From the NCBI RefSeq assembly GCF_000331995.1, contig NC_020134.1, positions 1,029,465-1,093,464 of the forward strand: 64,000 nt of DNA, given 5' to 3'. The notes under the pieces are model-generated. The model did not search any database. It saw only the letters and a program-made list of their open reading frames with translations, and was not told the DNA's origin. Every line of letters begins with the position of its first letter. The first letter of the stretch is position 1. The DNA comes from Thermoclostridium stercorarium subsp. stercorarium DSM 8532. GTDB lineage: Bacteria > Bacillota > Clostridia > DSM-8532. Below, piece after piece: positions 29,484 through 33,025 of this stretch. A program made the position numbers and the translations under genes.

Positions 29484-31604
29484 TTATTGTTTTTTAATTA
29501 TCATCGCCGGAAGCACACCGATGTTTTCAGTGTCGGCTTTTTTGTGGTAAACATAGCCGTCTTCGCCTACAATTCTTACCGTTGTGCCTATTGTATAAGG
29601 TGTTCTGAGCCAGTACGGAACACCTTTAATTTTTTTAAAATCATGGTTTTCCCATTCCTTTATGCTTAGCAGGAAAACTTTTTCGGTATTTTCAACCTGG
29701 TATGCGCTGTCATAATTCTGCGACGCGTAACCGGGAATACAAAACCAGTAGAGGGGACGGGAACCATATTCCTTTCTGTCAGCGAAAGCAGGCGGGATTA
29801 CCGTTCTTCTTTTCATCGGCAGAATTCTGTTTTTTTCATTCTCGGAAAATTCGTACAGAAAACCTTTTTCGGAATCGTCGTTAAGCCACGCTTTAATGTC
29901 CGATTCCGGCCAATAATTGGTATTGCCGGAAAACGGCCGAAATTCCACGATGTTTTTCGCCACGACGAAATAATACCCGTCGGTTTCTTCCAGTACTTCC
30001 CATTCAAGGGGCTGTCCCTTGTATCTTCCGAATAACAGTACTTTGTTTCCCGATATTCTGCCGTCTGCGGATATCAGAACAAAGAAAACCACGAAAAAAG
30101 CCAGGAAAGACAAGACAATCTGCCTGTTCAGCATATTTTCCGTCATAAGTTTGAGAATATCGCCTACAAGCAGGACAATCATTGTGTCCAAAAGCAGGTT
30201 GAATAAAAACATGTGCTTGATAAGGTCGGCTTCCCCGTTACCTATAACCGGAAATATCCACTGGCTTCCCGCGAAAATCATAAGCGTGAATTTCATCAGA
30301 ATAAAACCGGCAGACCTGTTAACTTTTTTCTTTTTTAACAAATAAAACTGGTAAAGCGTAACCGAAAAATACAGTAAAAATACTGAGGTCACAGCGCCAA
30401 AGGCATATCCGTTGAACTGCTTACGTATCCACTCCCATATGGAATTGCGTTTTACAAACTTTACAATCTCGGTATCGTCTTCAATGCTGTAATTTCCAAG
30501 GTACGGGGGCCGGATAAAAACGCTTGATTCAGCGCTCAGTTTAAGCTTTTCAAACATTCTTCCGGGATTTCTCAGATAATACAGCGAAACCTCCAGTGGC
30601 CCGACTTTGTCATGGACCTCCTTCTGAAACTCTTCGCCGAAGACGTCAAAGCCGTCAAGATCGTCATAAACAGTCGTGTTGGCGAGAACAGCGTATTTTG
30701 TATCTATTCCAAGCTTTTGCAGCTCTTCTTCCGGGGTGTCTGAACCTTTCAGAATTCCGTAAAATATCGAATGGTAATTGTTTGGCTTTGCCATCCATTC
30801 GGGGATTTCCCGGTAAAAGCTGGCCGAGGCTGAAACGGTAAGGCAAATGCCCAGAAGAACAAAGATTCTCTTTCCGGGAGTTTTTGCAATGAAAAGGAAA
30901 TATATTGAGAAAACGGCGATAAGAAAGCCTAACGGAATATTGGCCACTTTCGCACCAGCAAAAATTATGCCGCTTGTAAAATACAGAATAAGAGCCGGGT
31001 ACTTTACTTCATTATTGTGAACCATATTAAGCAAAACCGAAAACCACATCAGAAAGCCTGCTAAAGTCGCCGATTCCCCGAAAAGAGAATTGTAATAAAG
31101 GATATAGCCCATGTTATAAAAAACTGTCAGCAGAAAAAGCAAAATAAACAGATCATATGCTGTTTTACCGGTCTTAAGCGCTTTATAAATAAGAGTGACC
31201 GAAACGGCGTGCAGCAAAAGAAATACCGTCGAAAGGGCCGCAATATCGAAATGCTCTATTTTCCCATATCTCAAATACGACACGGTACCGTCCGCCAGTT
31301 GGGCAGCTTTCACGAACAAAAACATGGTCGATTTTAATCCGATTTCATCTTTAGTTTCGGGATTCAATACAAACCCTGCAAAATCATACAGGTTGTCAAA
31401 GGACTTGATATATTCAAATCTGCGCTGGAAATAAAAAAACTTAAGATTATTGTCCAGAAGAAATCCGGACGGACGGCTTATTCTTATAAAGTCGGTATTG
31501 TCTGCAATCCCCACGACGTTAGGAACGTATAATAATATTACGCCAGCAAAAAAGAGAATAACAGCCAGTATAATATATCTGTGCCGCGGACTCAAGTTTA
31601 TCAT
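29484..31604 (-). CDS. Polytopic membrane protein with C-terminal DUF6273-like domain
   Basis: About 706 residues. The N-terminal two thirds has roughly ten to twelve hydrophobic segments and a large extracytoplasmic loop, an arrangement seen in clostridial glycan-related (WsfD-like) transferases; that likeness is weak. The C-terminal ~195 residues are soluble: VLLFGRYKGQPLEWEVLEET, then W-L-N-D, then YWLRTPYTIGTTVRIVGEDG and the end GVLPAMIIKK. This is the pattern of DUF6273, a domain of surface proteins. ATG 31604 is preferred because the longer frame to 31694 crosses a 13-bp hairpin. CCGGGG touches this ATG closely, so TTG 31595 is also possible. Function unknown; the topology places the C-domain outside if the last helix exits. 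Confidence 0.6.
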   Translation of the reverse strand: MINLSPRHRYIILAVILFFAGVILLYVPNVVGIADNTDFIRISRPSGFLLDNNLKFFYFQRRFEYIKSFDNLYDFAGFVLNPETKDEIGLKSTMFLFVKAAQLADGTVSYLRYGKIEHFDIAALSTVFLLLHAVSVTLIYKALKTGKTAYDLFILLFLLTVFYNMGYILYYNSLFGESATLAGFLMWFSVLLNMVHNNEVKYPALILYFTSGIIFAGAKVANIPLGFLIAVFSIYFLFIAKTPGKRIFVLLGICLTVSASASFYREIPEWMAKPNNYHSIFYGILKGSDTPEEELQKLGIDTKYAVLANTTVYDDLDGFDVFGEEFQKEVHDKVGPLEVSLYYLRNPGRMFEKLKLSAESSVFIRPPYLGNYSIEDDTEIVKFVKRNSIWEWIRKQFNGYAFGAVTSVFLLYFSVTLYQFYLLKKKKVNRSAGFILMKFTLMIFAGSQWIFPVIGNGEADLIKHMFLFNLLLDTMIVLLVGDILKLMTENMLNRQIVLSFLAFFVVFFVLISADGRISGNKVLLFGRYKGQPLEWEVLEETDGYYFVVAKNIVEFRPFSGNTNYWPESDIKAWLNDDSEKGFLYEFSENEKNRILPMKRRTVIPPAFADRKEYGSRPLYWFCIPGYASQNYDSAYQVENTEKVFLLSIKEWENHDFKKIKGVPYWLRTPYTIGTTVRIVGEDGYVYHKKADTENIGVLPAMIIKKQ

Positions 31605-31640
31605 CCCCGGAAAAAAATTCCGCCTTTTATTTTTCGGTAC

Positions 31641-31674
31641 AAAATTACCCCGGCAAAGTCTCCGGGGTAATTTT
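31641..31674 (-). terminator. Terminator-like hairpin after the encapsulin gene
   Basis: Perfect 13-base stem AAAATTACCCCGG (31641-31653) / CCGGGGTAATTTT (31662-31674), loop of eight. It lies 46 bases after the encapsulin stop and before the membrane-protein gene on the same strand. The T run is part of the stem, so termination may be partial. Confidence 0.65.
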
Positions 31675-31720
31675 ACCCTTTTAATAACTGTCATAGAAAA
31701 TTATAACATAAAGTCAATTA

Positions 31721-32533
31721 TTATTCAAATATAATAATTGCTTCCTTGTTCTTAATGCGAAGTGCAACTGTTTCAACTATTCTGAATACATGATTGAGAT
31801 CCTTCGACTCCAGATACGCAGTTTCTATATCCTTGCCCACGGCGAGATCCATGTATTGGGGTTCGGCACATACCAATACCGCTTTATTGCTGCCAAGGAC
31901 AGGTGCGTTGTAGAGATGACCGTTCAGCATTTTGCTGATTCTTTCCTCTTCCATGATACCCATACCGGGATTCAAACGCTGCAGCTGTACATACAGGTCA
32001 GGGCTTAATACGAGAGCGTACCGGCCAATCAGGAATTTGCTGCGGAACTGTGCCAAGCCCGCTGCCACATCCCTGAAGGCATTATCGCCGACAGTCCAAT
32101 CGCTCTTTTGTATTTTAGCAGCGCCTTCTGCCGTCAATAATCCCTCCATTCCCAGAAATTCATTTCCGAAGAAAATAAGGGAATCTTCCTTCAGGGCAAT
32201 GTTCTGAGCGGCCTGCCTTACCTTTGACAAATCCAGAGGAATGCCTGTGGAATCACTGTGTTCGATATCTCTCCAGTTAAGGGTAAAGTCTTCATAAATT
32301 TGGGGAAGTTCAACAAATTTTCTTCCCGTCGTTTTTACAAAGCCATTTTCGGCTTCTTCAGCAGTATTTACGCTGTCTATGTTTATGCTTCTGACTCCGG
32401 CTCCAAGAGGGCCGTATAAGGATAAGAAGCGGCGCCCGATTATATGGGTTCTTACGGTATTTACCACCGTATTATCTATATTAGCCCAGAAATCATCCGA
32501 AAAGGATACGGTATCGCGTGCGAGAAAATTCAT
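31721..32533 (-). CDS. Encapsulin shell protein
   Basis: 270 residues, the usual length of family 1 encapsulins, which have the HK97 phage-capsid fold and self-assemble into hollow protein compartments. Family pattern: LARDTVSFSDDFWANIDNTV at the start, the E-loop region near 50-85, VELPQIYEDFTLNWRDIE, then GMEGLLT, IGRYALVLSPDLY and the C-terminal VETVALRIKNKEAIIIFE. AAAGGAGGG precedes the ATG. It follows a ferritin-like cargo gene by 54 bases, so the compartment most likely stores iron. No other cargo gene is adjacent. Confidence 0.95.
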   Translation of the reverse strand: MNFLARDTVSFSDDFWANIDNTVVNTVRTHIIGRRFLSLYGPLGAGVRSINIDSVNTAEEAENGFVKTTGRKFVELPQIYEDFTLNWRDIEHSDSTGIPLDLSKVRQAAQNIALKEDSLIFFGNEFLGMEGLLTAEGAAKIQKSDWTVGDNAFRDVAAGLAQFRSKFLIGRYALVLSPDLYVQLQRLNPGMGIMEEERISKMLNGHLYNAPVLGSNKAVLVCAEPQYMDLAVGKDIETAYLESKDLNHVFRIVETVALRIKNKEAIIIFE

Positions 32534-32587
32534 GCTTTTCCCTCCTTTGTATTGACCTTTTCAGGTGTTTGCACAAGAGGTCTTGAA

Positions 32588-32938
32588 TTATTTCAGCAGG
32601 CTGCCCACCGTTGACTGAGAGTTTGCTGAGTTGCTTTTAATGCCTGCTTCTTCCATCATTTCCTTGACTTCCTGTACGCCTTCTTCGAAATGTGCTGCTT
32701 CCGTCGGATCCAGGTGCCTTAGAAGAGTCATAAGTTCACCGACATGCGCTCTTTCTTCGTCTCTGATATCTGCGAGGACTTTTTTTGTAAATTCGTCATC
32801 GGTTGCCTGAATGTGGGCATCATAGAGATAAATTGCTTCCAGCTCCCCTGCAATGTCAAGACGTATTGCCTGAATAAGTTCCTCTTTTGTTAATTTGCGT
32901 TCAACATTTGCAGTAAACGGATTCCCAAAAACAGCCAT
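32588..32938 (-). CDS. Encapsulated ferritin-like cargo protein (EncFtn)
   Basis: 116 residues, two long helices. Glu32, Glu62 and His65 fall at the positions of the ferroxidase residues of the Rhodospirillum rubrum EncFtn; Tyr39 is kept, but position 38 is Leu rather than Trp. The C-terminal tail QSTVGSLLK after a flexible Asn/Ser stretch matches the short cargo-loading peptide that docks inside the shell. ATG 32938 has AAGGGAG at good distance; a longer TTG start is less likely. It would oxidise Fe(II) and pass mineral into the encapsulin lumen. Confidence 0.93.
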   Translation of the reverse strand: MAVFGNPFTANVERKLTKEELIQAIRLDIAGELEAIYLYDAHIQATDDEFTKKVLADIRDEERAHVGELMTLLRHLDPTEAAHFEEGVQEVKEMMEEAGIKSNSANSQSTVGSLLK

Positions 32939-32991
32939 GATACACAACTCCCTTCATTCGGTTATTTATTGTTCATGAAATCAAACATATC

Positions 32992-33025
32992 AGGGTAAAA
33001 TAATTAACTGAATAAATTTTACCCT
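32992..33025. promoter_or_regulatory. Inverted repeat downstream of the encapsulin promoter
   Basis: Perfect 10-base arms AGGGTAAAAT (32992-33001) / ATTTTACCCT (33016-33025), 14 bases apart. On the minus strand it begins 15 bases after the -10, so it overlaps or follows the transcription start. Operator or leader hairpin. Confidence 0.6.

Follow-up and report, generated by a model that had tools for sequence, protein, structure and literature searches.

A minimal two-gene encapsulin operon with an EncFtn-family cargo, the probable main iron store of Thermoclostridium stercorarium

Encapsulin iron stores are common in strict anaerobes, and the solved structures considered here come from other branches. 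By sequence, the nearest solved shell and cargo to the locus presented here are those of M. xanthus EncA/EncC (MXAN_4464). EncA makes T=3 shells, and smaller ones are possible too. The EncFtn of R. rubrum oxidizes iron and does not mineralize it alone, the housing provided by the shell being needed for storage (PMC5012862). A literature search for encapsulin in Thermoclostridium or Clostridium stercorarium found nothing.

The DNA analyzed here (the window, 64,000 nucleotides) carries an ordinary two-gene bacterial nanocompartment of a type known from many anaerobes. Its genes lie on the minus strand, cargo first and then shell, with a gap of 54 nt. The shell gene (31721..32533, minus strand) encodes a family 1 encapsulin of 270 aa, as the preliminary description had it, and scores far above the cut-offs of both curated models for the HK97-fold shell family of classical encapsulins: 279.6 bits with NCBIfam encap_f1 NF041155 (cut-off 100) and 238.5 bits with Pfam Linocin_M18 PF04454 (cut-off 24.3). 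A Shine-Dalgarno-like AAGGAGGG can be read 5′ of its ATG (32540..32547, minus strand). The cargo ends in STVGSLLK (32591..32614, minus strand), a targeting peptide that was likewise described correctly, so the locus has the family 1 arrangement of a cargo with a C-terminal targeting peptide beside the shell and on the same strand. The “fused cargo-less neighbourhood” of that description corresponds to nothing at the locus, where the cargo is present and unfused.

The cargo gene (32588..32938, minus strand) encodes a ferritin-like protein of the EncFtn/EncB family, 116 aa long when its start is taken as the ATG at 32938; the ORF list runs on to a TTG at 32947, and a Shine-Dalgarno-like AAGGGAG occurs 5′ of the ATG at 32948..32954 (minus strand). 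The family assignment is carried by curated scores of 162.9 bits with NCBIfam EncB_fam NF058679 (cut-off 90) and 30.6 bits with EncFtn-like PF22277 (cut-off 27); with the subfamily model TIGR04535, the cargo is under the cut-off (107.2 versus 125). Chance does not account for family scores such as those of the shell and cargo. Among its residues are Glu32, Glu34, Tyr39, Asp57, Glu61, Glu62, Ala64, His65, and Glu68. The EncFtn ferroxidase set of Glu32, Glu62-x-x-His65, and Tyr39 is thus complete, in keeping with the Glu32/Glu62/His65 reported at the outset, and is invariant in a 16-sequence alignment (A1). Sequence relatives in the PDB include EncC (7s8t, 75 bits) and the P. furiosus EncFtn (5n5e, 74 bits). 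The AlphaFold model (mean pLDDT 77.7, with low confidence in the tail) shows three helices, two of them long (residues 18–45 and 49–76); its best matches are 5n5e and then 7s8t, and the antiparallel helices are those of the EncFtn fold, with 50 of 50 among the top PDB matches listed being EncFtns.

The preliminary description remarked on Leu at position 38 in place of a “usual” Trp, and suggested that ferroxidase entry or gating might differ as a result. The Leu is indeed there; the usual Trp is not. A genome scan gave 168 relatives, of which 80, from named genomes, were kept; they span Clostridia, Brachyspira, Treponema, Christensenella, Actinomycetota, and others. At position 38, 60 of the 80 carry Leu, 10 Ile, and 10 Val, and none carries Trp. 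The count describes this clade, its members being ~60% identical or more, while the solved structures reach beyond it. There too, Leu aligns at 38 in M. xanthus EncC, P. furiosus EncFtn, and N. europaea EncFtn (NE0167), and of the solved relatives in these alignments, R. rubrum EncFtn alone has Trp38. That single Trp is what favors a functionally distinct EncFtn with altered entry or gating, a reading that we consider highly improbable given the aliphatic residue in 80 of 80 relatives, the solved EncFtns with Leu, and the ferroxidase and C-site residues named in the available parts of the literature, which do not include residue 38. Since aliphatic residues are usual at 38 in the group, any novelty of Leu38 is unsupported, and a Trp38-to-Leu change can be discarded as a special feature.

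A better-founded difference lies in the putative outer iron site, where the cargo reads Asp57-x-x-x-Glu61-Glu62-x-Ala64-His65-x-x-Glu68. A 2024 review (PMC11202242) assigns HxxxEExEH to the bacterial EncFtns that it covers, and DxxxEExA(T)H with Glu68 to archaeal fusions. The cargo has DxxxEExAH rather than the bacterial motif of that review; HxxxEExEH describes solved members and marks a sub-type without defining EncFtn. Asp57 and Glu68 are invariant among the 80 relatives, and Ala occupies position 64 in 71 of them. The pattern that the review gives for archaeal fusions is found here in a free bacterial cargo. Gly31 stands where the proposed C site of R. rubrum has Glu31, a residue that is not conserved according to the same review (PMC11202242). 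A deep cargo tree had few columns and very long outgroup branches.

The shell was expected to be ~24 nm across, a size that the sequence does not imply. Its closest solved relative in a sequence search is EncA (187 bits), followed by the T=4 shell of Quasibacillus (175 bits); the T=1 shell of T. maritima scores 72 bits. Because the shell is nearest to EncA, 24 nm is unsafe, and on these scores a larger shell would be at least as likely. Shell residue Trp87, found in 19 of 28 aligned shells, may sit near the position of the flavin-binding Trp90 of T. maritima.

The membrane gene after the shell, flagged earlier for comparison, encodes a WsfD-like hexose transferase (29484-31694, 380 bits) that carries a DUF6273 domain at its C-terminus, and is probably outside the encapsulin system. 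A terminator-like hairpin (31641..31674, minus strand; −23.4 kcal/mol for a 48-nt piece, z −4.83) lies 3′ of the shell gene and within the 5′ end of the wsfD ORF, an end that is probably over-long, the listed start being probably too early. At the corresponding place in a same-genus locus (L029), there is a stem with a T run behind it (z −4.71), and in the same-genus genome G001, a hairpin occupies the same place behind the shell stop. The post-shell hairpin of the window, whose T run is short, was missed by a simple terminator scan. Gene order is kept in G001 (gcvPB-wsfD-shell-cargo-membrane129-gdh-hsp20), where the WsfD-like gene reads as two overlapping ORFs. In G002, by comparison, all of the neighbors occur in order without cargo and shell, and in G003, they are kept except for hsp20 in the stretch read, again with cargo and shell absent; membrane129 and wsfD are ~250 nt apart in both. 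Considering the post-shell hairpin and the constant place of wsfD in two genomes without encapsulin genes, wsfD is probably a separate unit, and an operon with it is unlikely. The same two genomes indicate that the cassette is present or absent as a unit, since they keep the neighbors and lack both genes. Upstream of the cargo gene, a 9-bp inverted repeat (GGGTAAAAT/ATTTTACCC; 32993..33024, z −3.33) can be read that the matching stretch of L029 did not show; it might be an operator or a leader hairpin.

Cargo and shell are missing from two of the four same-genus genomes examined, and the function is therefore dispensable. Such patchiness within the genus could be taken to mean that the operon is a decayed or unexpressed remnant. 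This is very hard to credit for a locus in which both frames, the ribosome sites, the catalytic residues, and the targeting peptide are intact, and whose two proteins are 82–88% identical to those of a same-genus genome with the same gene order.

In the genome (2.97 Mb, a single contig), a profile search found the shell gene as the sole PF04454 match, and hence no second encapsulin shell. PF00210 matched two loci, both of them rubrerythrins with rubredoxin-like domains, and no other ferritin-type store was found with this model. A second cargo was sought with two DNA patterns for stop-terminated tails of the TVG[ST]L and [ST]IG[ST]L types; the matches were few and as numerous in order of magnitude as those of the reversed-pattern control (8 versus 14 and 14 versus 7, respectively), and of these C-terminal patterns only the known cargo's tail ended a credible gene. 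Because neither a second encapsulin nor a ferritin-type store was found, the encapsulin is probably the genome's main iron store.

Elsewhere in the clade, cargo and compartment are closely coupled. A tail matching [VI]-G-[SGND]-[LM] occurs in 75 of the 80 relatives, all 75 with an adjacent shell downstream of the cargo (median gap 20 nt), while the remaining five lack both (Fisher p 4e-8, with kinship among loci ignored). The L101 shell is split over several frames. PF04454 gave no match in the five shell-less genomes, some of which are metagenome bins of uncertain completeness (L102 and L107 carry no such label), and matched in five of five positive control genomes. On a tree, the tail/shell trait needs four changes, two of them forced by well-supported branches. 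One locus is instructive about how the two might go together: in L063 (6001-6421; Clostridiaceae MAG contig JAAXZX010000030.1), the cargo ends before its tail and is followed directly by ~33 degenerate codons resembling a shell C-terminus (55–61% identity, best E ~4e-7), with the same VFE-stop end, and then by superoxide reductase and rubrerythrin genes. Most simply, this is probably the trace of a deletion that took the cargo tail along with most of the shell. In the remaining shell-less loci (L094, L102, L107, and L122), no convincing shell remnant was seen. Near these four are, variously, FeoB (L107), a DUF438/hemerythrin/PAS protein (L094, with a similar-looking one in L102), and a gene of the prismane family (L122).

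Another recurrent arrangement is a desulfoferrodoxin-type superoxide reductase gene 13–259 nt 3′ of the shell, on the same strand, in 13 relatives (L051, L059, L064, L069, L071, L077, L081, L082, L089, L090, L092, L098, and L106), accompanied by rubrerythrin in L071, L081, L090, and L092. These neighbors point to oxidative-stress defense. Literature on encapsulin with superoxide reductase amounted to a passing co-mention that leaves the linkage untreated, an absence that is weak evidence. It is conceivable that oxidant scavenging is the primary role, the cargo spending Fe(II) to remove H2O2 or O2 with storage secondary, and the persistence of the cargo alone in 5 of 80 loci would suit this reading as well as the downstream genes do. 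We nevertheless think it rather unlikely here. Neither superoxide reductase nor rubrerythrin stands beside the window's cassette, the genome has no other ferritin-type store that we could find, and the R. rubrum and T. maritima systems mineralize iron (PMC5012862, PMC8610991). Moreover, the genome has no match to superoxide reductase PF01880, so that, together with the lack of such neighbors, a stress role would have to be carried over from relatives.

The analysis established the protein identities, catalytic residues, targeting peptide, gene coupling, and the finding of no other ferritin-type store. We conclude that the locus is very probably a family 1 encapsulin operon in its minimal, two-gene form, whose shell encloses the cargo ferroxidase ring and which acts as the main ferritin-like iron store. 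The initial naming of an encapsulin with an EncFtn cargo thus stands, on curated models and solved relatives, and iron oxidation and storage are its best-supported role. Homologues supply the model for ring assembly, loading, ferroxidase activity, storage, and oxidant. The cargo would assemble as an EncFtn ring, with Glu32/Glu62/His65 of paired subunits forming a di-iron ferroxidase centre. The STVGSLLK peptide would bind the inner face of the shell, and the ring would therefore be enclosed during shell assembly. Fe(II) could then enter via the shell pores and be oxidized by the cargo; the oxidant in an anaerobe would most plausibly be H2O2, or trace O2 during oxygen exposure. The oxidized iron would be mineralized in the lumen, giving the cell its main ferritin-like iron store and limiting Fenton chemistry.

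The extra interest of the locus is modest, and comes from the pattern of shell loss and from the motif at the outer site. We suggest, tentatively and short of even confidence, that EncFtn can outlive its compartment in this clade, tail and shell having been lost jointly and repeatedly to leave intact free ferroxidases, and that an archaeal-type outer iron site occurs in a free bacterial cargo. If the shell-less EncFtns are under selection, oxidation or detoxification rather than storage would be the selected part. Natural shell-less cargos would offer a direct route to asking what EncFtn does without a compartment. The branch, which extends over Clostridia, Brachyspira, Treponema, and others, also provides a two-gene system of minimal form, in a genome where no other ferritin-type store was found.

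Set against the known systems, the cargo has features of several. It shares the Glu32/Glu62/His65/Tyr39 ferroxidase centre of R. rubrum EncFtn (Rru_A0973), although the two score only ~28 bits and the Glu31 (C site), Trp38, His57, and Glu64 of that protein are replaced here by Gly31, Leu38, Asp57, and Ala64. The anaerobe T. maritima likewise has a ferritin-like cargo with a C-terminal targeting peptide, whereas its shell is far more distant than EncA. The IMEF encapsulin of Quasibacillus approaches EncA in shell score and belongs to a Firmicute group mostly without ferritin or bacterioferritin, but its cargo is of another family, without the EXXH motif. M. xanthus EncC shares Leu38 and the C-terminal targeting peptide and differs in having His57/Glu64 for Asp57/Ala64; M. 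xanthus also has several cargos, whereas a single one directly precedes the shell here. Finally, the P. furiosus EncFtn-encapsulin (5n5e, 2e0z), whose cargo domain is the top structural match, has Leu38 and the Asp57...Ala64-His65...Glu68 pattern in a ferritin domain fused to the shell, while in T. stercorarium, the same pattern occurs in a separate protein with its own targeting peptide.
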